Shown piece after piece: positions 2,994 to 19,615 of a DNA stretch of 64,000 nucleotides. The stretch's first letter is position 1. Every line of letters begins with the position of its first letter. Under the pieces are notes generated by a model that worked only from the letters and a program-made list of their open reading frames with translations, made no database searches and was not told the origin of the DNA. Source of the DNA: Chryseobacterium gleum. GTDB lineage: Bacteria > Bacteroidota > Bacteroidia > Flavobacteriales_D > Crocinitomicaceae. The stretch covers positions 62,001 through 126,000 of the forward strand of contig CAMDFX010000002.1 in the NCBI GenBank assembly GCA_945897805.1, given 5' to 3'. A program made the translations under genes and the position numbers.

Positions 2994-3014
2994 CGTTAAA
3001 TTATTGTATCTTTG
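2983..3014 (+). promoter_or_regulatory. Bacteroidota-type promoter of the ATPase gene
   Basis: TTTG (2983-2986), a 20-nt spacer and TATCTTTG (3007-3014) match the -33/-7 consensus known for Bacteroidota sigma-ABfr (TTG-N17-23-TAnnTTTG). Transcription should start near 3020, which places the ATG at 3040 about 20 nt downstream. This argues against an in-frame TTG at 3004 as the start, because that codon lies inside the promoter. Confidence 0.75.
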
Positions 3015-3039
3015 CTCTTGTAAATCAATAATTAAGAGC

Positions 3040-4194
3040 ATGTATTTTTATCGACATTTAGAAGATTCTATTCGCAAATATCAACAAATCTTCCCAATTA
3101 TCGCTATTTTAGGTCCTCGTCAGTGCGGAAAATCAACGCTGATTAAACAATTATTTTCCCCTGAAAAAAATTCAATTTACCTTGATTTACAGAATTTGGA
3201 AGACTTGAATAAATTGAACGATCCTCGGTTATTTTTCAATTCCAATGCACAAAAAATCATTTGTTTAGATGAAATTCAATTAATTCCTGAACTGTTTTCT
3301 GTTTTGAGAAGCGTTGTAGATGAAAATCGACAAAATGGAAGATTCATTCTACTGGGTTCAGCTTCGAGGGAATTGGTGCAACAAAGTTCAGAATCATTGG
3401 CGGGAAGAATTGGCTATCTATCGCTTACCCCTTTTCAAATCAATGAACTTCCAACAATTGACCAACAAACGTGCTGGAATCGAGGTGGCTTTCCTGATAG
3501 CGTGTTGGCTGAAAACGATGAATTTAGCGCAATTTGGCGTGAAAATTTCATCAAAACATACGTTGAAAGAGATTTACCACAATTGGGTTTTCAAATTCCA
3601 GCTTTACAACTAAGGAGATTTTTGATCATGTGTGCACACAATCAAGGACAGATTCTCAACCTAAGTAAACTGGGAAGTTCCATGAATTTAACGCATCCAA
3701 CCATCCGAAAATACATTGATATTTTTGAGCAAACATTCATCGTTCGCGCTTTGCCCCCATTCGAAATCAATGTAAAAAAACGACTCGTAAAATCCCCAAA
3801 AATATATGTCCGCGACAGTGGATTACTTCATCAATTATTGGGAATCAAAAACATGGATGCACTATTTAGTCACCCTGTTTTCGGCTCCTCTTGGGAAGGA
3901 TTTGTGATTGAACAAATTTTATCAGCGATTGACGTGCCAGCCTATTTTTATAGAACTGTCACAGGTGATGAAATGGATTTGGTATTGGATATTCATGGAA
4001 AAATAATCGCCATCGAATGCAAAGCTTCCGTTGCCCCTCAGGTCACCAAAGGATTTTACAAAGCCATTGAAGTGCTGAAACCTGTCAAAACATTTATCGT
4101 CGCGCCAATTGAAACAACCATGTATGCGCTGCAAGAAAATATATTTGTCGGGAGCATAAAAGATGTGATTTTTGAAATCGATCAAATGCTTTGA
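3040..4194 (+). CDS. AAA_14/DUF4143-type ATP-binding protein
   Basis: This 384-aa protein has an N-terminal P-loop ATPase domain with Walker A GPRQCGKST near residue 30 and a Walker B-like IICLDEIQ near residue 75. A sensor-like ILLGSASREL follows, then a wHTH-like middle (SKLGSSMNLTHPTIRKYIDIF). The C-terminal part is of the DUF4143, PD-(D/E)XK-like type (YVRDSGLLHQLLG, then DEMDLVLD and AIECKAS). The family is widespread, often duplicated and functionally undefined. Its C-terminal fold suggests a nuclease-like or DNA-binding activity. The start at 3040 is set by the promoter at 2983-3014. A more distant relative lies at 42434-43561 on the other strand. Confidence 0.85.
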   Translation: MYFYRHLEDSIRKYQQIFPIIAILGPRQCGKSTLIKQLFSPEKNSIYLDLQNLEDLNKLNDPRLFFNSNAQKIICLDEIQLIPELFSVLRSVVDENRQNGRFILLGSASRELVQQSSESLAGRIGYLSLTPFQINELPTIDQQTCWNRGGFPDSVLAENDEFSAIWRENFIKTYVERDLPQLGFQIPALQLRRFLIMCAHNQGQILNLSKLGSSMNLTHPTIRKYIDIFEQTFIVRALPPFEINVKKRLVKSPKIYVRDSGLLHQLLGIKNMDALFSHPVFGSSWEGFVIEQILSAIDVPAYFYRTVTGDEMDLVLDIHGKIIAIECKASVAPQVTKGFYKAIEVLKPVKTFIVAPIETTMYALQENIFVGSIKDVIFEIDQML

Positions 4195-4336
4195 CGTTTT
4201 TTGACATTTTGGGAAAACCTCACCCAATTCAAGCACAGTATTATTTTAATGTTAATGTGAACAAATCGATGTAAATAACCTTTTTTGATTGCTATTTTGG
4301 AGATTTCATTTTCGAATACCTTTAATAAAAAAACCC

Positions 4337-5662
4337 ATGGCAAAAAAAGAAAAATTATTCGTGCTCGATACTTCTGTATTATTACATGACCATCAATCGA
4401 TAACCAATTTCAAAACCAACAATGTTGCCATTCCGATTACTGTTTTAGAGGAGTTGGATAAATTCAAAGTTGGAAATGACACCAAAAATTTTAGTGCCAG
4501 GGAAGTCATTCGTTTCATCGATAAATTGTCGGGAAAAGGATCGTTGCAAGAATGGATTTCACTAGGAAAAGGACTAGGAAAGTTTAAAATTACCATGGAA
4601 CAAATGCCGCTTTCTATCAATGCGGAAAAGGTTTTTTCAGCCGAAAAAAACGACCATAAAATTATCAATTCAGCGCTTTTCTTGAAAGAACAAGAAACGA
4701 ACCAAACGGTTGTTTTGGTCACAAAAGACATCAACCTACGAATCAAAGCCAAGGCTTTAGGATTGATTTCGGAAGATTATGAAACTGGCAAAGTAAGTAC
4801 TGAAAACTTAAAAGAAGCAAATTCTTCTAACATTGAAAATGTTGATTCAGAATTGATTCGGGAAGTTTTCATCAAAGGATCTATCGAAGAAAATGGTATT
4901 TTAGGCAACAAAAAAACAGTCAATGGATATTATATTTTAAAGAATGGAAAAACGTCTTCCTTGGCATTTTACAACCATCTTTCAAATAAAATTGAACGCA
5001 TTGAAAAGGAATTTGTCTACGGTATAAAACCCAAAAATGCAGAACAAGCATTTGCTTTTCACGCACTATTGAATAACGATGTAAAATTAGTCGCACTGCA
5101 AGGCGTTGCAGGAACTGGTAAAACCTTGCTTGCGCTTGCAGCTGCTTTAGAACAAAACAAGCAATTCAACCAAATAATTTTAGCCCGACCAATTGTGCCG
5201 CTATCAAACCGCGAAATAGGTTTTTTGCCCGGCGATGCAAATGAAAAAATCAGTCCTTACATGGAACCTTTGTGGGACAATTTGAAATTTATAAAATCCC
5301 AGTTTGGCGAAAATGAAAAAAAGCACAAAGCCATTCAAGAAATGCAAGATTCGGGCAAAATTGTGATTACACCTTTGGCTTTCATCCGCGGTCGCAGTCT
5401 TTCAAATATCATTTTCATTGTTGATGAAGCCCAAAACTTGACACCACATGAAGTAAAAACAATCATCACGCGCGCTGGAGAAAACACCAAGATTATTTTT
5501 ACCGGCGATGTGCACCAAATCGATTCGCCCTATTTGGATGAAAATAGCAATGGTTTGGCTTATTTGATTGACCGTTTGAAAAATCAACCACTGTTTACAA
5601 ACGTAAAATTGGAGAAAGGCGAGCGATCTGAATTGGCTAATTTAGCGAATGATCTTTTGTGA
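4337..5662 (+). CDS. PIN domain-PhoH family ATPase (YlaK-like)
   Basis: This 441-aa protein matches the usual length of the PIN-PhoH fusion found in many bacteria. The N-terminal PIN domain (about residues 1-140) begins KLFVLDTSVLLHD, with the acidic residues expected of a metal-dependent RNase fold. The C-terminal PhoH helicase-like ATPase has Walker A GVAGTGKTLL near residue 256 and Walker B IIFIVDEAQN near 358, followed by IIFTGDVHQID. Family members are thought to be RNA-unwinding or RNA-degrading proteins, and mycobacterial PhoH2 shows both activities. The ATG at 4337 is chosen over an upstream in-frame start at 4289 because homology begins at MAKKEK and the leader just before it is A-rich. 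Confidence 0.9.
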   Translation: MAKKEKLFVLDTSVLLHDHQSITNFKTNNVAIPITVLEELDKFKVGNDTKNFSAREVIRFIDKLSGKGSLQEWISLGKGLGKFKITMEQMPLSINAEKVFSAEKNDHKIINSALFLKEQETNQTVVLVTKDINLRIKAKALGLISEDYETGKVSTENLKEANSSNIENVDSELIREVFIKGSIEENGILGNKKTVNGYYILKNGKTSSLAFYNHLSNKIERIEKEFVYGIKPKNAEQAFAFHALLNNDVKLVALQGVAGTGKTLLALAAALEQNKQFNQIILARPIVPLSNREIGFLPGDANEKISPYMEPLWDNLKFIKSQFGENEKKHKAIQEMQDSGKIVITPLAFIRGRSLSNIIFIVDEAQNLTPHEVKTIITRAGENTKIIFTGDVHQIDSPYLDENSNGLAYLIDRLKNQPLFTNVKLEKGERSELANLANDLL

Positions 5663-5805: not shown

Positions 5806-6924
5806 ATGCCCAAGCCCAAATATTTGCTTTCTGAATATACTAAAAAAGAAATTTTCAAGAAAATATGTGTTCAAGTTGGGTTTCCTATTTTCACCAAATT
5901 AGATTGCAAGAAGGTCAGTGAATTAATCACAAAATCAGGCTTTTCTGGTATTTCAGAAAGTACGCTTTATCGTTTATTTCTTTGGAAGGGAAATAAAAAC
6001 ATGCCTTATTTGCACACGCTGAATACCTTGGCTGAATTTTGCGGATATGCAAGCTGGAATGATTTTGATATTCAATTACAAGAAATAGATTCCTTTGTGC
6101 TTGGGTTTGGTAAATTTCAACAATCGGATGCTTCGATAAAAAGTTTGATTACAGTCTGTATTCATGAAAATGAATTAAAGCCTTTGTGCCGTTATACAGA
6201 GCAATTTGAAACAATTGATGATTTTAAAATAAAAACAAAATTTGCAGAAGAAATTTTTAATTCAACACTTACAAATTCAAATAACGAACAGTTTTTTAAA
6301 ACTTTTCACCACTTTCCAGTCATCAGAGAATTTTACTTTGAATTATTAGCAGATCCTTCGTTTTCCATACCTAATTATGAATCTGGAATACAGTATTATT
6401 TAAAAAATATCAATCCTGAAAATTCATTGAAAGATTTGCAGGATTATATTTTTGGAAATTGTTTGCTGTTTAGGCATTATTTTTTGACAAAGAAGGTATC
6501 AAAAGCCAAAAAACTAGGGAAAATATTATTTGAAAATTTAGCGTTGACAGACCAACAACTGCAGGAAATACATGTTTTCCCCGTTGCCAGATTTTTTGCC
6601 TGTAAATTGATGTATTTAGACTCGAAAAACAACCTCCTTGAAACCTTTGACTTTATTAAAGAAATTCATGATTTTTTAGGGAAAATAATACCTGCAATTT
6701 CACTTCATGAGCAAAGAATTTTGTTTTATAATATCGGGGAAGCATACGTTTTTAATGGTATGATTTCAATGCAAGACCACGACCAATTGAAAGCGTTATT
6801 TTCCCATTTATTTGATCAACTTCCGCATCAATTGATCGATCAGAAATTAGAAAAAATCGTTCCATATTTTAATAAAAATGGTTCTTTTTACATCCATCAT
6901 TTACACAAGCTTGAACAAAATTAA
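5806..6924 (+). CDS. Putative DNA-binding regulator of a paralogous family (member A)
   Basis: This 372-aa protein has no signal peptide. The N-terminal ~90 residues carry a helix-turn-helix-like pattern: CKKVSELITKSG, then ISESTLYRLF, then the tail HTLNTLAEFCGYASWNDF. The same pattern occurs in the proteins at 15398-16639 and 19739-20998. The remaining ~280 residues are helical, TPR-like in character, and have no motif I recognise. I infer a cytoplasmic transcription regulator with a sensing C-terminal half. It is the first gene of a co-directional run and ends 61 nt before the ion-channel gene, so the two may be co-transcribed. It could instead be a structural adaptor, because DNA binding is not demonstrated. 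Confidence 0.55.
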   Translation: MPKPKYLLSEYTKKEIFKKICVQVGFPIFTKLDCKKVSELITKSGFSGISESTLYRLFLWKGNKNMPYLHTLNTLAEFCGYASWNDFDIQLQEIDSFVLGFGKFQQSDASIKSLITVCIHENELKPLCRYTEQFETIDDFKIKTKFAEEIFNSTLTNSNNEQFFKTFHHFPVIREFYFELLADPSFSIPNYESGIQYYLKNINPENSLKDLQDYIFGNCLLFRHYFLTKKVSKAKKLGKILFENLALTDQQLQEIHVFPVARFFACKLMYLDSKNNLLETFDFIKEIHDFLGKIIPAISLHEQRILFYNIGEAYVFNGMISMQDHDQLKALFSHLFDQLPHQLIDQKLEKIVPYFNKNGSFYIHHLHKLEQN

Positions 6925-6985
6925 TTGCCTTTAAATGAATCTGAACGAAAGAAATTAACCCAAATTAAATTCAAAAATATAAGTA

Positions 6986-8566
6986 ATGTCTAAACAGTGG
7001 AATAAAATTATTGTGATTTTTGTCATCCTAGCGCTAATTCAACTTATTCTAGAAACCACCCCACACATTTCTGCAAACTACAGGAATTATTTAATCGTTT
7101 TCGATGGATTTATAACACTTGTTTTTATGATTGATTTTTACCTCAAGATCAGAATAAAAATGAGTGATTATCACCAAGAAAAAAAGATTTCGGCGTTTTT
7201 TAATCTTGAATTGCTTATTGATTTTTTAAGTATCATTCCGTTTTTTATCTCCTTGTTTTTTAGCGGGTTAAAAATAATTGCAGTTTTGAGGTTATTGCGG
7301 ATGTTGCGGATTTTAAAATTAATGAACTTAGTGAAATCTCACTCATTGATTATCAATGCAATGAAAAACAAGAAGAATGAATTATACATTTCGATGCAGG
7401 TGGTTTTCATTATTACTGTGATTCTTTCTTCTATTTTATACTTTGTTGAAAATCCCAGTCAACCGGAGAATTTTTCCAGTATTACCGATGCTTTTCTATG
7501 GTCAATTTCTAAATTTATTGGAGAAATTGGAGGATATGGAGATTTTGCACCAATTACTTTTTTAGGTAAGATTTTGGCCACTTTCGTCGGGATTCTTGGA
7601 ATTGCCATTTTTGCCGTTCCTGCCGGAATAATTGCATCAGGATTTGTGGAGGAAATAGAACTTGTCAAAAAAAATGAAGAATTAGAAGCGCTTTATACAA
7701 CACTTTCAAAAGCTTTCTGTTTTGATATTTTGGCAGGTCAACGCGCGAAAGAAGAATTGGGTTTACCAAACGCTAGAAGAAGATTTATTTCGTTGGTTGA
7801 CGCTTCCATTCAACTCAAAACTAGTCAAACAAATCTTTTTGATGTTTGTGCGCTCCAAAGAAATATAAAGCTATCCAAAAGATTAAAACCTAGTGGTGAT
7901 GAAGAAATACTATTAGAATTCTTCGAAAACAATACTACTTACGGGACTTTTGTAAATAGGAATTCCAATATTACCATTATGAGTCCGCACTCGAATGATG
8001 GATTCAATCTTGGTCACTATTCATATTGCTTAGCAGAACTGTTGCAAGCAAATTATATGAGTGTTGAAAAATACGGTATTTATTCTTTTACAGAAGAAAA
8101 TAACATCAATTTTAATTTCAATGATGCTTATTTAATGTCAAAAGATTTAATTGAAAATGAAGTAATAAAATCATTTATCCATGACTTAAAAACACTCGTA
8201 AAGCCAAATTCTTTTGTTTTCAATATAGGCAGCAGCATGGGAAATTCACCAAGTTTTCATTGTTTGACCGGTGGTAAATTAGGAGAATTAGGTGTCTGTA
8301 AAGCGGGAACATTTATTGAAGAAGATAAAGCAGAAAAAATAATATCAAGGTTGAATGAAACTGGGACTGAAGATTTATTAACCACCACCACGCACACGCA
8401 CTATGGCACAAATGCTGAAAATCATTTTGACTGGTACGTTCGAAATGGTTTTAATGCCAATGCCATGTCGATCAAAGTCAATGTGGAAATCATGAAAGGA
8501 TCTCATGAAAAATACTACAAAACCATTGGATTATTAGGCGAGAGTATTAAACAGATTTCCAATTGA
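6986..8566 (+). CDS. Voltage-gated K+ channel-type protein with large unknown cytosolic domain
   Basis: This 526-aa protein begins with a six-helix ion-channel unit. S1 covers about residues 8-24, S2 35-53 and S3 74-93. S4 is arginine-rich (LRLLRMLRILKLMNLVK, about 101-117), S5 is about 135-153 and S6 about 194-219. The pore helix and filter read FIGEIGGYGD (177-186), so the classical TVGYGD is altered to IGGYGD. Residues ~240-526 form a soluble domain that I cannot assign. It has histidine-rich motifs, MSPHSNDGFNLGHYSY and TTTTHTHYG, suggestive of a metal site. Its stop codon overlaps the start of a pyroglutamyl-peptidase-like gene, so channel and peptidase are translationally coupled. It is probably an inner-membrane channel gated by voltage or by its C-terminal domain. 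Confidence 0.75.
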   Translation: MSKQWNKIIVIFVILALIQLILETTPHISANYRNYLIVFDGFITLVFMIDFYLKIRIKMSDYHQEKKISAFFNLELLIDFLSIIPFFISLFFSGLKIIAVLRLLRMLRILKLMNLVKSHSLIINAMKNKKNELYISMQVVFIITVILSSILYFVENPSQPENFSSITDAFLWSISKFIGEIGGYGDFAPITFLGKILATFVGILGIAIFAVPAGIIASGFVEEIELVKKNEELEALYTTLSKAFCFDILAGQRAKEELGLPNARRRFISLVDASIQLKTSQTNLFDVCALQRNIKLSKRLKPSGDEEILLEFFENNTTYGTFVNRNSNITIMSPHSNDGFNLGHYSYCLAELLQANYMSVEKYGIYSFTEENNINFNFNDAYLMSKDLIENEVIKSFIHDLKTLVKPNSFVFNIGSSMGNSPSFHCLTGGKLGELGVCKAGTFIEEDKAEKIISRLNETGTEDLLTTTTHTHYGTNAENHFDWYVRNGFNANAMSIKVNVEIMKGSHEKYYKTIGLLGESIKQISN

Positions 8567-9132
8567 AGAAAATATTAATCACTTATTTCGGCCCATTTAA
8601 AACGTTTAAAGAAAACCCGGCTGAACTTATTTCTGCTGAACTAAAGCTATTATTTAGGGAAAATCAACACATTGAATTCAAGCGTATCGAAGTCACCTAT
8701 GAATCGATAAATCATTTCTTAGATTCAGATCTATCTGGTTTTGACACAATCATTGAATTGGGTGTCGCAACAAAATCTGAAAAATTGCGGCTTGAGTTAT
8801 TTGGAACAAACTATATAAACGGAGTGGACAATAATAATCATTCCAAAATTGGAGAAATTGAAAATACAAATACATTTTCAATTGGTACGAAATTTCCATT
8901 AAGCACTATTGATCAAATAATTAATCTTTATCCTGATTCTGTATTAAAGTCTGAAAGCGCTGGAAAATACTTATGCAATTTCCTTTATTATAAATCAATC
9001 GTTAAATTCCCAGAAAAAGACATTCTATTTATTCACTTAGCTAACTTTTATGACCTTGCCGCTGCCCTTTCTGCAGAAATACAAGTGGAAATAGTTGCAG
9101 CGCTGATAAAATACAAATCAAAAAATACTTGA
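8563..9132 (+). CDS. Pyroglutamyl-peptidase I-like protein (peptidase C15)
   Basis: This 189-aa protein is slightly shorter than typical C15 enzymes (about 200-215 aa). It opens ILITYFGPFKTFKENPAEL, matching the family N-terminus (ILvTgFePF...NPS). All three catalytic residues can be placed: Glu78 in LRLELFGTNY, Cys138 in SAGKYLCNFLYY and His158 in LFIHLA. It is therefore probably active. C15 enzymes remove N-terminal pyroglutamate from peptides in the cytoplasm. The start is a TTG at 8563 inside the channel gene's stop (TTGA overlap), with no better ATG. The tight coupling to a K+ channel is unusual and suggests a joint role rather than general peptide recycling. Confidence 0.75.
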   Translation: MKKILITYFGPFKTFKENPAELISAELKLLFRENQHIEFKRIEVTYESINHFLDSDLSGFDTIIELGVATKSEKLRLELFGTNYINGVDNNNHSKIGEIENTNTFSIGTKFPLSTIDQIINLYPDSVLKSESAGKYLCNFLYYKSIVKFPEKDILFIHLANFYDLAAALSAEIQVEIVAALIKYKSKNT

Positions 9133-9198: not shown

Positions 9199-9579
9199 AT
9201 GTCAGAAATTTCAATTAGCGGAAGAATGAAAGTAATTTCTTTTCAAAAAGACTTTTTAAAATCTTACCCATACCTTTATCCATCACTGCGATACCCGAAT
9301 GATAAAGTTGTAGATGAAGATTCAACAATTGCAAATGCAAAAAATGTTTCTTTAGGAGGAAAATACGTGCCAGCAGGTGATGCAGACATTTCTATGCGAG
9401 GAAACTTAACCGTTGGTGGTTTTGAAAAACGTTTTGAAGAAGCATTTTCTGTAACATGTCAAATTCACTTCAAGAAAAATGGTAAATGGGTAAAAACTGG
9501 TCCCAAATACGACGGAATGACATTGGCTTCAGCAAGCAAATTGTTGGAAGAAGAAGGATGTGAAATTATCAAATTATAA
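9199..9579 (+). CDS. Unknown 126-aa protein, first gene of the TerB/KAP cluster
   Basis: I do not recognise this protein. It is soluble, with no signal peptide or membrane segment, and appears beta-rich (ISISGRMKVISFQKDFLKSY, then a segment ending in GDADISMRGNLTVGGFEKRF). It ends in a short helix (SASKLLEEEG). Two nucleotides separate its stop from the ATG of the 49-aa basic peptide, so the two are co-translated. Position and spacing make it the promoter-proximal component of the TerB/KAP cluster. No catalytic motif is evident. Confidence 0.65.
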   Translation: MSEISISGRMKVISFQKDFLKSYPYLYPSLRYPNDKVVDEDSTIANAKNVSLGGKYVPAGDADISMRGNLTVGGFEKRFEEAFSVTCQIHFKKNGKWVKTGPKYDGMTLASASKLLEEEGCEIIKL

Positions 9580-9745: not shown

Positions 9746-10525
9746 ATGAAAGAAAATATTAATGATTTAGCGAGCATCCTTGCAGTTTCGATTCTTGCAG
9801 ATGGTGAAATCGACAATCAGGAAACAAAATTAATTGAAGATTTAGAACATGATACTGAATTGCCAGGGCTTGCTGCTGCAATACAACAAGTGGTTTCAAT
9901 GGCACATCTTTTTTCAGATGATCAATTAACTGAATTACTTTTTAAGAGTGCTTCAAAATTTAAGGCAGAAGATAAACCAAAAGTTTTTGAAGCTGCAATA
10001 TCTACCATTTTAGCTGATGGGGTAATTACAGAAGATGAAATATCTAATGTCTTAACCATTGCGGAAGCTTTAGAAATCCCTGTTGAAAAAGCCATCGCTA
10101 GATTACTTTTTCAAGTGCAGGAAAAAGAGGGAGACTTGGTAGTTGATGTAGAAGATCTTTTGGTAGATTTTATAATTGTTGGTGGCAAAACTAGATATAC
10201 TAGTTGGAGTTCCTTCGAAAAAATGCTGGTTGATGCAAATTATCCATCCAATTTGATTGAAATTCTAGAAGCTGTTCAAAATTGGTCTGAAAGTACTTTT
10301 CAAGACAATGTTACATTTAACTACACCCCAAATTTCATGACTTTGGCTTGCACAAATCCCGTTTCAAGATCAAAAACATTTTGTTTTGTGAGAATGAAAC
10401 CTAATTGCATCCGTTTTGAATATATGGGAACTGTAGAAGATGTAAAATCTGTCGCTGATTTATCAGGAAACATTAAAAATGGGATCACAGAATATTTTAA
10501 TCAATTATCGATCAACAAAATTTGA
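9746..10525 (+). CDS. TerB-like protein with a C-terminal domain shared with the KAP NTPase
   Basis: This 259-aa protein is soluble. Residues ~5-125 look like the tellurite-resistance TerB fold, with two acidic motifs, SILADGEIDNQE (16-27) and TILADGVITEDE (87-98), that could bind metal. Residues ~150-259 form a separate domain with core NYTPNF (192-197), RSKTF (208-212) and an FVRMK...FEYMG strand pair. The same domain ends the KAP NTPase at 11736-13502. TerB domains occur in stress and conflict gene clusters and are thought to act at the inner membrane surface. The shared domain resembles the DUF5655 style only loosely. A microprotein gene follows 72 nt downstream. Confidence 0.7.
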   Translation: MKENINDLASILAVSILADGEIDNQETKLIEDLEHDTELPGLAAAIQQVVSMAHLFSDDQLTELLFKSASKFKAEDKPKVFEAAISTILADGVITEDEISNVLTIAEALEIPVEKAIARLLFQVQEKEGDLVVDVEDLLVDFIIVGGKTRYTSWSSFEKMLVDANYPSNLIEILEAVQNWSESTFQDNVTFNYTPNFMTLACTNPVSRSKTFCFVRMKPNCIRFEYMGTVEDVKSVADLSGNIKNGITEYFNQLSINKI

Positions 10526-10597
10526 TTTGTAATTTTTTTAAAGTTCTGAATTTCTGAAACTTGTAAATGTGTATTATTAATTTACAACGATTTTTTA

Positions 10598-10768
10598 ATG
10601 TTCGGTTTTAAAAACAAATTTGGCTTTTCCTTCTCTTGGAAACGGCTACTTGGAATATCCGGATTTAAAAGCAGCGTTGCTCAAAAAACGGGTATTCCAA
10701 CCACTCGTGGTGGGATGGAAAGAAAAATCGGCCGCACATTCATTAATTTTTTATTTGGTAAAAAATGA
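10598..10768 (+). CDS. 56-aa microprotein 1, paralogue of the one at 13502
   Basis: The ATG at 10598 opens a 56-codon frame whose stop overlaps the next gene (ATGA at 10765-10768). The product is basic: MFGFKNKFGFSF, then WKRLLGISGFKSSVAQKTGI, then PTTRGGMERKIG, and a hydrophobic tail. The protein at 13502-13675 matches it along its whole length, so selection on protein sequence is clear. Each microprotein directly follows a gene ending in the same C-terminal domain, so a partner or regulator of that domain is a reasonable inference. I do not recognise the family. Confidence 0.75.
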   Translation: MFGFKNKFGFSFSWKRLLGISGFKSSVAQKTGIPTTRGGMERKIGRTFINFLFGKK

Positions 10769-11079
10769 CGAATAGCTCCAATAATGGTACTTCAAAAACA
10801 TCACTGACTATGTTGATCGTTTATTTGATTTCCTCTATTTTAGGTGGATTGATTTTTAGTGGTCTTGCATTGCGCGCAAAAAATAATGGTGGCTCAGGAA
10901 TTGGATGGGCTATCCTATCACTAATTTTCATAGCCATTTTTGGTTATTTAGGATACGCGTACTATTACACTTCTAGTCCAACAAAAGATCCATTTTGGTA
11001 TTACCTCGGAATCACGACTTTAATTGCGAATAGTTTAGCTTTATTTATTGTCTTACTAGTAATTTTTAAACGTAAATAA
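10765..11079 (+). CDS. Small membrane protein, 104 aa
   Basis: The start overlaps the microprotein stop by four bases. There are three predicted transmembrane helices: about residues 14-37 (TMLIVYLISSILGGLIFSGL), 47-67 (IGWAILSLIFIAIFGYLGYA) and 78-101. No catalytic motif is visible and the N-terminal tail is polar (TNSSNNGTSK). The next gene starts inside its stop (TAATG). It is probably an inner-membrane subunit of the TerB/KAP cluster. Confidence 0.7.
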   Translation: MTNSSNNGTSKTSLTMLIVYLISSILGGLIFSGLALRAKNNGGSGIGWAILSLIFIAIFGYLGYAYYYTSSPTKDPFWYYLGITTLIANSLALFIVLLVIFKRK

Positions 11080-11468
11080 TGGGACTCGTACAAACATTGA
11101 TTGATGAAATAATACCGCTCCCAAAACACGCTGATTATGAAAGTGTTGGAAACAAACAAATGGTTTGTGTTTATCGCTTGGGCTATTCATTTTTAAATCT
11201 GATTTTCCAAACAATTGATTGTATTGTTATTCCATTTTTTGTATTTAGTTGCTTTAAAGGACAACTAGATTTTGGATGGCTAAACTGGATTATCATCATA
11301 GTAGGCGGACTATTTTCCATATTCAGCTTATCTCAATGTTTCTATTATTTCTTGATTCCCGCTGAAAAATACTTGAATCCATTGCATGGAAGAATTTTTG
11401 GAGAAACCGCTATTGGTGCTTTTATAGCAGCATTGTTTAAGGTCAAAATAATAACTTATGTAGAATGA
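11079..11468 (+). CDS. Small membrane protein, 129 aa
   Basis: The start shares one base with the upstream stop, and its own stop overlaps the following ATG (ATGA, 11465-11468). After a soluble N-terminus (residues 1-30) there are hydrophobic segments at about 35-57 and 67-92, and a third weaker one near 110-125. I recognise no family. Overlaps on both sides make co-translation with its neighbours very likely. Confidence 0.7.
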   Translation: MGLVQTLIDEIIPLPKHADYESVGNKQMVCVYRLGYSFLNLIFQTIDCIVIPFFVFSCFKGQLDFGWLNWIIIIVGGLFSIFSLSQCFYYFLIPAEKYLNPLHGRIFGETAIGAFIAALFKVKIITYVE

Positions 11469-11735: not shown

Positions 11736-13502
11736 ATGCAAAAAAATTCAAATATCATAGACAAACCTCGCAAAGAGGGCGCTGAAGATTTATTGGGCGT
11801 TGACAAATATACTGACGCATTAATTCAATTTATTGAAACGTGTCAAATGCCAACAACCCTGGCTATTCAGGGAGAATGGGGAAGTGGAAAAACCTCTTTA
11901 CTGAATCAAATTCGCCACCGATTGTGTGAATCAGATTTAAATACGCAAGAAGTAAATACAGAACGCCCATTTTATGGCATTTGGGTAAATACTTGGCAGT
12001 ATTCCTTGATGAAAAGCAAAGACGAAGCACTCATTGCGATTATTGGAGGATTAACCAATGAAATTCTTTCCATTCTTAAATCAAAACACGAATCGAAAGC
12101 AAAAGCAACCATCAATAAAGTAAAAGGCTTATTTTCTAAATTAGGAAAAGCGGGCGCAAAAGCTGCCGTCAGTACGATTGGTTTGGAAACAGATCTTGTA
12201 GATTCTCTTTTAGAACGGGAAGAAGGTGAAGTAAATTTACTTCAATTTAAAAGCGCTTTGCAAGATGCCATCAATGAATGCCTAGAAGAAGACCGTAAAC
12301 ATGGAAATAATAACAAAGGTTTTATTTTCTTCATAGATGATTTAGATCGAATTGATCCGCCGGTAGCTGTAGAAATTTTAGAACTCATTAAAAACATCTT
12401 CGAAGTTGACAATTGTTTATTTGTTTTAGCAATTGATTATGAGGTTGTCGTAAAAGGATTAATCCCAAAATTTGGACCTTTAACGGAAAAAAATGAACGC
12501 GAATTTCGTTCTTTCTTTGATAAAATTATTCAACTTCCTTTCTCAATGCCGGTTGCCAATTACGATGTGACCAAATTTTTAATTCATTCTTTGGAAGACA
12601 TTGGTTACATCGATAATCGCATTTTAGAAAATGACTTACTGAAAGAAAAATTGGCAGATTTAACTTTACTGTCCGTTGGCACAAATCCGCGTTCTCTCAA
12701 AAGGTTAATTAATACACTTTCCCTTTTAAATATTATTGGGAAAATGGATGAAAATGAAGAAAAGGAAATCCACGAATTACTCATTAATTTCGCATTAGTT
12801 TGTATTCAAATTGCGTATCCTAAAATATATGAATTACTGACTCAAGAGCCTTCATTTAGAGATTGGACGGAGCAAACCGCTAAAAAACTAAGACTTCCTG
12901 AATTGAATGAATCTCAATTAATTGTACTAAATAGCACAAATGAATTTGACGAAGAATGGGAAAAAGTGATGTTCAGAAAATGTCAGCAGGATCCATACAT
13001 GGCAAGCAGGGCTTTTCAAATTTCACAATTGTTGAATTACATCATTGAATTGGTGCCAGAAAAGATTAATTTTTCAGAGGAAATTTCACGAATTATTGGA
13101 TTTAGCGCCGTTACAAGTATCAATTTGGATCGAATTCCTAAAGTGGTTTCAAAAGGAGAAAAAGTTCGCTTTGAAGGTTTTGCTGCACTAGGTGAAATTC
13201 TAAAAGTGAACAAATTTAGTGATGCTTACATTGGTACTTTAAAAATCATTCATGATAAAATTGAAACTAGATTTAAAGATTTAATTCAAATCAATTATAC
13301 GCCAAATTTTATCACTTTTACTTGTAAACATCCAAAAGGTAGAAGCAAAACATTTTTATTTATCCGATTTAAGAAAAATTTGGTTCAATTTGAATTTTCA
13401 GGTCAAACGGCACAAATCATGGAGCCAACAAATTTCACAGACGATTTGATGAATAAATTAGTGGATGCATTCAATAACTTATCTGAAAATCAATTGAACT
13501 AA
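11736..13502 (+). CDS. KAP-type P-loop NTPase with the shared C-terminal domain
   Basis: This 588-aa protein carries Walker A GEWGSGKTS (46-54), the KAP-typical WVNTWQY (83-89), Walker B FIFFIDDLDRIDP (197-208) and LAIDYEVVVKG further on, with an SVGTNPRSLKRLIN region later. KAP NTPases (STAND-related, named for Kidins220/ARMS and PifA) usually carry membrane helices between Walker A and B. Here that stretch (~105-150) is only amphipathic, and separate small membrane proteins are encoded upstream. Residues ~490-588 repeat the TerB-like protein's C-terminal domain (NYTPNF at 520). PifA blocks phage T7, so an antiphage or conflict role is a fair inference. Its stop overlaps microprotein 2. Confidence 0.85.
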   Translation: MQKNSNIIDKPRKEGAEDLLGVDKYTDALIQFIETCQMPTTLAIQGEWGSGKTSLLNQIRHRLCESDLNTQEVNTERPFYGIWVNTWQYSLMKSKDEALIAIIGGLTNEILSILKSKHESKAKATINKVKGLFSKLGKAGAKAAVSTIGLETDLVDSLLEREEGEVNLLQFKSALQDAINECLEEDRKHGNNNKGFIFFIDDLDRIDPPVAVEILELIKNIFEVDNCLFVLAIDYEVVVKGLIPKFGPLTEKNEREFRSFFDKIIQLPFSMPVANYDVTKFLIHSLEDIGYIDNRILENDLLKEKLADLTLLSVGTNPRSLKRLINTLSLLNIIGKMDENEEKEIHELLINFALVCIQIAYPKIYELLTQEPSFRDWTEQTAKKLRLPELNESQLIVLNSTNEFDEEWEKVMFRKCQQDPYMASRAFQISQLLNYIIELVPEKINFSEEISRIIGFSAVTSINLDRIPKVVSKGEKVRFEGFAALGEILKVNKFSDAYIGTLKIIHDKIETRFKDLIQINYTPNFITFTCKHPKGRSKTFLFIRFKKNLVQFEFSGQTAQIMEPTNFTDDLMNKLVDAFNNLSENQLN

Positions 13503-15397: not shown

Positions 15398-16639
15398 TTA
15401 CTCAAGTAATTCAAACACCCAAGTTTGTCCTGTTAATTTGGCAAAGGAATAAACATTGTCTTGCATCAAATTTTTTATTTTCGAGTCTGCATACAAGATT
15501 GAAGTGGAGGATTCTAAAATCACTCTTGCATTGTTTTCATTTTCAAACTCTTTGCTTTGGAGTTTCAACGGTGGATGATATTCTAATTGGTCAAAATAAT
15601 ATTTATGCACCACAAACTGCAATATTAATTCAGCGATGGTTGCAACTTCAGAATTTTTGTAGCACTTTAAGATAGCGCGTGAAAAATCAGTTGAATCTAA
15701 TGTTTTTCTTAAAATACCATTGTAAGCAAATGCTTTAATTGGTCGAGCAATGACCCACGCAAAGGAATGATTGTCTAATTTTTGCTCATAATTCAATAAA
15801 AAATTCACGTAATTTGAATAACTTTTTTTCAGCCTATTAGACTTTCCATCAATTAGAATACATGTTTCGATGTAACGAGAAATTTCGTGAAAGTGTAATT
15901 GGTCAAACTGCAAATTTGCTTTGAGTTGCTCGAAATCTAAAAGCAATTGCGCGTCTACTTTCTTTTTCGAATAAACTTGCTTGGATATCAAATAACAAAT
16001 CCCAAAAAGTTTATTATTTATGGTGGAAACATTTTGAAAATAATACGTTTTTAGAGCGCTTGAAAAATATTCTTCGTGGTCATCTTCATCCACAAAACTC
16101 TCGTAAAATAATCGCCTCCCATTTTCAATAGAAATCAATGTTTCAAGCAATTCTTTCTTGCAATTTGATTTCCGAACCATCCTGCCCAAGAAACTAGTTA
16201 GTTTTCCTATGGATGGGTGATTCATGTCAAAAGAACCAATGATTTCTTTTATGGTATTAAAATCTTTGGATTCAATTGCCATTTCGAGCGCAACAAAAGA
16301 ATATTGACCCAATTCAAAAAGATTATTGGGCGCACTTAATCCTCGTTCGATGAATAATTTTTCTTGCTGAATAAACGCTTTTAAATTCTCAAAACCGATA
16401 TAAGTAGCGAAAATATCCAATGTTGCAGGATACGTTTTTCTAAAGGGCAAAACACCAAAAAATCTGGCGATGGTATGCGTGGATATGGCGCACCCTTTTT
16501 GAGACATTAAAACGGCTAAGCTTTCGCACTCCTTGAAATTAGAAACATTGAGCCCTGACATTGCCCTAATTTTTTTACACAATAATTGGTAAAAAATACT
16601 TTGATAAAATTCTCCGTCATGTTTCGTAAGCATTTTCAA
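15398..16639 (-). CDS. Putative DNA-binding regulator, family member B
   Basis: This 413-aa protein has no signal peptide. The N-terminal segment CESLAVLMSQKG, then ISTHTIARFFG, then TLDIFATYIGFENLKAF matches members A and C in order and spacing and looks like a helix-turn-helix. The C-terminal ~300 residues align with member C, including the near-identical tail LYADSKIKNLM...YSFAKLTGQTWVFELLE. The gene is divergent from YwqK-like paralogue 1. The shared intergenic region holds a palindrome, a 10-bp direct repeat and a good rightward promoter, which suits a regulator acting on itself and its neighbour. The start could be 6 nt further in (MLTKHD). Confidence 0.65.
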   Translation of the reverse strand: MKMLTKHDGEFYQSIFYQLLCKKIRAMSGLNVSNFKECESLAVLMSQKGCAISTHTIARFFGVLPFRKTYPATLDIFATYIGFENLKAFIQQEKLFIERGLSAPNNLFELGQYSFVALEMAIESKDFNTIKEIIGSFDMNHPSIGKLTSFLGRMVRKSNCKKELLETLISIENGRRLFYESFVDEDDHEEYFSSALKTYYFQNVSTINNKLFGICYLISKQVYSKKKVDAQLLLDFEQLKANLQFDQLHFHEISRYIETCILIDGKSNRLKKSYSNYVNFLLNYEQKLDNHSFAWVIARPIKAFAYNGILRKTLDSTDFSRAILKCYKNSEVATIAELILQFVVHKYYFDQLEYHPPLKLQSKEFENENNARVILESSTSILYADSKIKNLMQDNVYSFAKLTGQTWVFELLE

Positions 16640-18716: not shown

Positions 18717-18763
18717 TTTTCTGATTAAAAAATAACTATATTTATGATGGAAAATTAATCAAA

Positions 18764-19615
18764 ATGAGTTTAGACAATAAAACAAAAGACGAAAGCACAA
18801 TAACGAATCTTCATTTAATTGAAGAACAACAGCTGCGCACTGTTTGGGATTCTGAACAAGAAAAATGGTTTATTTCTATCGTGGATGTAATCGAGGTACT
18901 TACAGGTACTGACCGACCAAGGAAGTATTGGAATGATTTGAAAACCAAACTTAAAAAGGAAGGCAGCCAGTTGTCCGAAAAAATCGGACAACTGAAAATG
19001 CAATCTTCTGATGGGAAGTATTACCAAACTGATGTAGCTGATACAGAACAACTTTTTCGTTTAATTCAATCTATTCCTTCACCTAAAGCAGAGCCTTTTA
19101 AACTTTGGTTGGCACAAGTGGCAGCAGAAAGATTAGATGAATTACAAGACCCTGAGTTGAGTATTGATAGGGCTTTAGAACAATATCTGAAATTAGGTTA
19201 TTCAGAAAACTGGATAAACCAAAGGTTGAAAAGCATTGAAATTCGGAAAGAATTGACAGATGAATGGAAAAAGCGTGGTTTAAAAGAGGGACTTCAGTTT
19301 GCCACGCTTACCGATATCATTACCAAAGCTTGGAGCGATAAAACAACCAAGGAGTATAAAGTACTAAAAGGATTGAAGAAAGAAAATCTAAGGGACAACA
19401 TGACCAATACAGAATTGATTTTAAATATGTTAGCAGAGGCTTCTACCAAAGACATATCCGTTGCCACCAATCCCAAAGATTTTGAAGAAAGTAAAATTGT
19501 AGCCAAACAAGGCGGTAATGTTGCCAATGTCGCACGGATAGAATTAGAAGCGAAAACAGGCAAAAAAGTGGTCTCTGAATTGAATGCAAAAGATGTTTTT
19601 AAAAGCATAGAGTAA
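18764..19615 (+). CDS. Bro-N / DinD-like phage antirepressor-family protein
   Basis: This 283-aa protein has an N-terminal Bro-N-type domain (about residues 20-115: VWDSEQEKWFISIVDVIEVL, then PRKYWNDLKTKL, then DTEQLFRLIQSIPSPKAE). The DinD-type C-terminal half contains LKEGLQFATLTDIITKAW, ENLRDNMTNTELILNMLAEA and KQGGNVANVARIELEAKTGK. Such genes are spread by phages and mobile elements, and DinD is SOS-induced in E. coli and inhibits RecA filaments. It sits between a truncated regulator and an intact one, so it probably arrived by horizontal transfer and broke the regulator copy on its left. Confidence 0.85.
   Translation: MSLDNKTKDESTITNLHLIEEQQLRTVWDSEQEKWFISIVDVIEVLTGTDRPRKYWNDLKTKLKKEGSQLSEKIGQLKMQSSDGKYYQTDVADTEQLFRLIQSIPSPKAEPFKLWLAQVAAERLDELQDPELSIDRALEQYLKLGYSENWINQRLKSIEIRKELTDEWKKRGLKEGLQFATLTDIITKAWSDKTTKEYKVLKGLKKENLRDNMTNTELILNMLAEASTKDISVATNPKDFEESKIVAKQGGNVANVARIELEAKTGKKVVSELNAKDVFKSIE

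Follow-up and report, generated by a model that had tools for sequence, protein, structure and literature searches.

We analyzed a 64,000-nucleotide stretch of DNA (hereafter the window) and found that positions 6986-8566 of the forward strand encode a 526-residue channel with an ATG start. The stop codon of this gene overlaps the TTG start of a gene for a C15-type peptidase by 4 nt (TTGA). Both open reading frames and their overlap had been described in the first-pass annotation, and both descriptions held. The features of the locus are listed below.

6925..9132, forward strand: two-gene cassette of the channel and the C15 peptidase, absent at the syntenic site of congeners (comparison with G395 and G398)
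6986..7654, forward strand: S1-S6 membrane part of voltage-gated type, channel residues 1-223 (PF00520, 1.2e-20; PF07885, 3.4e-7)
7649..8563, forward strand: cytosolic C-terminal domain of the channel, residues 222-526, about 305 residues (AF2 model, structure matches, column counts)
8563..9132, forward strand: predicted C15-type (pyroglutamyl) peptidase, 189 residues, TTG start (PF01470, PDB sequence matches, alignment)

Residues 3-223 of the channel matched Pfam Ion_trans with an E-value of 1.2e-20. A predicted full-length model placed S1 at residues 2-24, S2 at 33-61, S3 at 74-91, S4 at 97-115, S5 at 130-155, the pore helix at 166-178 and S6 at 192-243, and in this model S6 was one unbroken helix that ran to residue 243 and entered the cytosolic domain. 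S4 carries a basic repeat made up of R102, R105, R108 and K111. Measured against voltage-gated K+ channels, the protein has the six-transmembrane Ion_trans region and the S4 basic repeat but lacks the canonical TVGYGD filter, the window's channel having IGGYGD at residues 181-186. From its sequence, the product of 6986-8566 is predicted to be a 6TM channel of the voltage-gated type. No RCK or CNBD match was found in the channel with Pfam. The first-pass annotation had considered that the cytosolic part might be a common regulatory domain of ordinary channels; it corresponded to no known regulatory domain of that kind.

The product of 8563-9132 matched Pfam Peptidase_C15 (PF01470) with an E-value of 7.8e-10 and a score of 39.5 bits, above the curated cutoff of 22.7, and it had PDB sequence matches to 6ltq and 2ebj. 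Alignment with solved and plasmid-borne C15 enzymes indicated that the triad of Glu78, Cys138 and His158 is in place, in agreement with the earlier claim for the catalytic residues. We assign the product to peptidase family C15 as a predicted peptidase. Like pyroglutamyl peptidase I, it keeps Glu-Cys-His and matches the family above the cutoff. Unlike that enzyme, it is coupled to a channel and belongs to a divergent clade, with an altered pocket and a shorter C-terminus; its identity to the ordinary C15s in the comparison was 18-29%. Both Phe residues of the T-G-F-x-P-F pocket motif are kept, the Gln of LGQAG is replaced by Val, and the region that follows the catalytic His is shorter than in the canonical enzyme. 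Since the pocket residues differ from those of the canonical enzyme, the substrate may be something other than a pyroglutamyl peptide.

The cytosolic domain, to which the first-pass annotation could assign no family, did prove to lie beyond the sequence libraries: it had no match in Pfam, NCBIfam or PADLOC and no PDB sequence match. Weak Pfam matches to SAM_LFY and RNA_pol_Rpb2_6 fell below the cutoff and were taken as noise. We modeled the domain with AlphaFold (AF2) from an alignment of 21 members and obtained a pLDDT of 91.4 and a pTM of 0.90. A structure search with the model returned the fold shared by N-formylglutamate amidohydrolase (FGase) and poly-gamma-glutamate hydrolase at Z 14-16, with matches to the FGase-like 2odf (VIA Z 15.8 over 188 residues), the FGase 2q7s (VIA Z 15.2) and the poly-gamma-glutamate hydrolase YndL 5onj (VIA Z 14.2); M14 carboxypeptidases ranked after these at Z 10-12. 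On this model, the domain is predicted to have the FGase/poly-gamma-glutamate hydrolase fold. Profile comparison with ten Bacteroidota FGases gave a weak, colinear match (hhalign E 4e-4, probability 15, 232 columns), and strands and helices follow one another in the same sequence in the domain and in FGase.

The domain is thus like FGase (PF05013; 2q7s, 2odf) and YndL (5onj) in fold and in secondary-structure order. Unlike these enzymes, it is fused to a channel and has no Pfam match (the PF05013 profile matched none of the 21 members), and it lacks the third Zn His and the catalytic Glu. These positions were mapped by secondary-structure order and the weak profile alignment, without superposed coordinates; on this mapping, the third Zn column held His in 0/21 sequences and the base-Glu column held N/S/T/G or V in all 21, never Glu. 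The best conserved polar residues were S359, E361 and D400 (21/21) and H344 (20/21), and G429 was also among the conserved residues. S359, E361 and D400 remained invariant across members that were 20-30% identical. The distant relatives G283/G341 had Tyr in place of H344. The first-pass annotation had drawn attention to two His-rich motifs, of which H470, the first His of HTHYG, stood up well (His in 18 of the 21 sequences), whereas H335 of SPHSNDG (9/21) and H472 (5/21) did not. Because none of the 21 relatives has the third Zn ligand or the catalytic Glu, we read the domain as probably a retired amidohydrolase, a pseudo-enzyme that binds a ligand and acts as a sensor and not as an enzyme. 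The suggestion of an enzymatic sensor domain was therefore supported as to the enzyme fold but not as to catalysis, since the zinc and base residues of an amidohydrolase are missing.

Genomes were searched by sequence and then by profile, and about 25 Bacteroidota channels bearing the domain were identified. Their distribution was rare and patchy, with the domain present in 16/399 genomes of the order and 3/340 genomes of the phylum sample. The window itself falls in Crocinitomicaceae (Flavobacteriales), as judged from kinship labels and one named relative. A single-sequence search of genome contigs gave no match, a profile search found no channel relatives in viral contigs, and the domain had no match in plasmids or phages. 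G070 and G156 gave weak matches only and proved to be unrelated proteins. The pore varied among the domain-bearing channels: the main branch has [IV]GGY[GAV]D and one branch is without GYG. In L090, L092 and L093 the domain follows a 2TM pore with the canonical TVGYGD, and no S1-S4 match was found upstream of that pore. Two of these three fall in Saprospiraceae in the tree. The 2TM domain-bearing pores of L090 and L093 lie at 7181-8413 and 10013-11248, respectively. Since the domain is kept across changes of voltage sensor and filter, it appears to behave as an independent gating module. In prokaryotic 2TM and 6TM K+ channels of the MthK and MloK1 type, the pore is followed by a cytosolic ligand-gating domain, either RCK or cyclic-nucleotide-binding. 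The window's channel resembles this type in having a pore followed by a cytosolic domain, as do the three 2TM members, but differs in its IGGYGD filter and in the FGase/M14 fold of that domain. Most other channel loci are solitary among housekeeping genes, which on our own reading include uvrA and photolyase. About 20 domain-bearing channels have no peptidase neighbour, and the peptidase would therefore be dispensable for the working of the domain.

The first-pass annotation had left it to be seen whether the two genes occur together elsewhere. We found that C15 adjoins a domain-bearing channel in three genera, represented by the window, G553 and G779, the last two being metagenome assemblies with a contig of only 3.5 kb in G779. 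The junction in G553 is ATGA, the same 4-nt overlap with C15 downstream, while in G779 the C15 gene lies upstream of the channel, so that the gene order has changed and the adjacency has been kept. The C15 proteins of the two relatives were 51% and 34% identical to that of the window, as compared to 64% and 62% for their channels. C15 was detected in 2/199 genomes of the order, touching a domain-bearing channel both times, and in 2/395 genomes of the phylum sample, one of which is the window's. A search of ten other genomes that carry the channel domain gave no C15 match, and 3/13 such genomes have it. In the trees, the three C15-paired channels formed one clade (100/100), and the three channel-paired C15s likewise grouped together, separate from ordinary C15s (100/99, long branches). 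Because both sets of paired proteins are single clades, one origin of the pair would be enough, and the association may be a single event.

Comparison with two congeners (G395 and G398) indicated how the pair is inherited. In both, a gap of about 70 bp that contains no gene separates the homologues of 5806-6924 and 9199-9579, and the flanks are 85-98% identical to those of the window. Since the syntenic site in the two congeners lacks exactly the two genes, the channel and C15 appear to move as one unit that is gained or lost together, and this indel is the strongest evidence for such a unit.

Other partners were seen beside channel relatives. In G592 (L088 9938-12614), a domain-bearing channel overlaps a MATCAP/QEGLA-type metallopeptidase (PF08014, 1.3e-41) by 11 nt; MATCAP is a second peptidase family coupled to domain-bearing channels. 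G045 has a fusion of MATCAP with a true FGase. A gene for Endonuclease_NS (DNA/RNA non-specific endonuclease) overlaps the channel gene in G615 (L095 7227-9814) and is divergent from it in G701 (L082 2494-5057). In G498 (L084 7087-11599), the channel is present in two tandem copies and a UDG-like gene overlaps the first of them; another tandem channel pair is present in G544 (L083). KAP, UDG-like, DUF481 and the protein of 9199-9579 were rejected as obligate channel partners since the congeners keep them without the channel. Directly after the channel and C15 of G553, there is a graspetide-type ATP-grasp maturase (L078 12204-13435; TIGR04187, 7.6e-54) with an 82-aa ORF just before it. We considered whether these two might supply the C15 substrate and did not retain them; a search for the ATP-grasp at E 0.001 in five genomes, the window's among them, gave no match but had no positive control. 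Further along, L078 13468-21557 encodes a UDG-like protein and, after it, MORN-type proteins in which the N-terminal domain of the UDG-like protein is repeated. Between them lie two short pieces of the C-terminus of the UDG-like protein (16340-16603 and 18759-19118).

Within the window, three genes matched PADLOC candidate families, namely AAA-DUF4143 at 3004-4194 (PDC-S01, 8e-89), a KAP NTPase at 11736-13502 (PDC-S20, 1.4e-31) and a Bro-N protein at 18764-19615 (PDC-S13, 9e-131). These genes are mostly kept in the congeners. The C-terminal domain of the KAP NTPase is also found in a TerB-like protein (9746-10525), with 32% over 114 aa. Comparison with the congeners showed a further indel at the TerB block (9746-11468), where they have a 210-aa gene instead, and a PIN-PhoH protein (4289-5662) between conserved neighbours is missing at the syntenic place in the congeners.

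In human TRPM2, the C-terminal NUDT9-H domain is catalytically dead and binds the gating ligand (PMC5671594, PMC6461439, PMC11479946). The window's protein is like TRPM2 in being, by prediction, a cation channel whose cytosolic C-terminal domain has a hydrolase fold. Unlike the window's channel, TRPM2 is eukaryotic, has a Nudix fold and an ADP-ribose ligand and is without a coupled peptidase. TRPM2 is the nearest working analogue, by likeness of working and not by membership.

The best overall explanation, which we hold at a little under an even chance, is that the two genes specify a cation channel, gated by a ligand and bearing a voltage sensor, together with a dedicated peptidase. We put forward more tentatively that the peptidase makes or removes the ligand of the channel. 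The pseudo-enzyme domain would bind, without cleaving, a glutamate-derived or N-blocked peptide; we propose a ligand of this type because the nearest enzymes by fold cleave glutamate-type amides and the partner is predicted to remove pyroglutamate. The ligand site would be the old active-site cleft around H344, S359, E361 and D400, and the domain would relay binding to the gate by way of the S6 helix, as in human TRPM2 with its dead NUDT9-H domain. C15 would set the level of the ligand: by taking off a pyroglutamyl (or similar) cap at the N-terminus, it would end or start the signal. In lineages without C15, the ligand would be made or removed by another enzyme, and one lineage may use the MATCAP-type peptidase.

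The first-pass annotation had instead taken the two genes for an effector pair rather than housekeeping. The channel would then depolarise the cell on infection or stress with C15 as trigger or restraint, in the style of abortive infection or of a toxin-antitoxin system. What stands of this claim is that the cassette is a rare, recurring, non-housekeeping unit, found in three genera and present or absent as a whole at the syntenic site. It also lies near the candidate-family genes AAA-DUF4143, KAP and Bro-N, and KAP NTPases occur within a few kb of the channel in G553, G028 and G615 as well as in the window. However, KAP, UDG-like and Bro-N are retained in congeners without the cassette and are thus not its obligate partners. 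A place for the pair in a defence island was not supported, since PADLOC profiles gave no match to the channel or the peptidase up to E 1, and most channel relatives are solitary, with housekeeping genes around them and no consistent defence neighbourhood. In addition, C15 is an exopeptidase, and a protein would have to carry pyroglutamate at its N-terminus to be acted on. We therefore consider a role as effectors rather unlikely.

It is also unlikely that the domain has a structural role only, as a ring for tetramerisation or scaffolding that binds no ligand, with C15 unrelated and kept by linkage. Such a role would fit the many members without a partner enzyme and the single origin that suffices for the C15 association, but against it stand the invariance of polar residues (S359, E361, D400) at low identity, the near absence of C15 elsewhere in the phylum sample and an adjacency that outlived the change of gene order in G779. 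We regard as quite improbable a chanzyme, in which the domain would be catalytically active through a rearranged metal site (e.g. H344, E361, H470) and would consume its own ligand by hydrolysis while C15 acts on the product or substrate. Conservation of H344, E361, D400 and H470 is consistent with it, and the choanoflagellate TRPM2 couples gating and hydrolysis (PMC11479946). On the other hand, the third His and the base Glu of FGase are lost from every member, H335 and H472 are poorly conserved, and Tyr stands for H344 in G283/G341. We thus retain the ligand-gated channel with a pseudo-enzyme sensor and a dedicated peptidase.

A partial paper collection yielded nothing relevant on a channel with C15 or with an FGase-like domain, so novelty is unproven. 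The physiological role of the C15 peptidase family in bacteria has been described as unclear (PMC11036351). The small size of both proteins and the standard assay available for C15 make the question of the ligand directly testable. We think it a long way from likely, though worth stating, that Bacteroidota have an undescribed intracellular signal in which a peptide of pyroglutamyl or N-acyl-glutamyl type gates ion channels through a retired amidohydrolase domain, with C15 or MATCAP peptidases switching it off or on. The cassette suggests an undescribed bacterial way to open or shut a channel by a small peptide-like molecule. If true, this would give the C15 peptidase family a role and would provide a bacterial counterpart to TRPM2-type channels, in which an enzyme fold has been turned into a ligand sensor.
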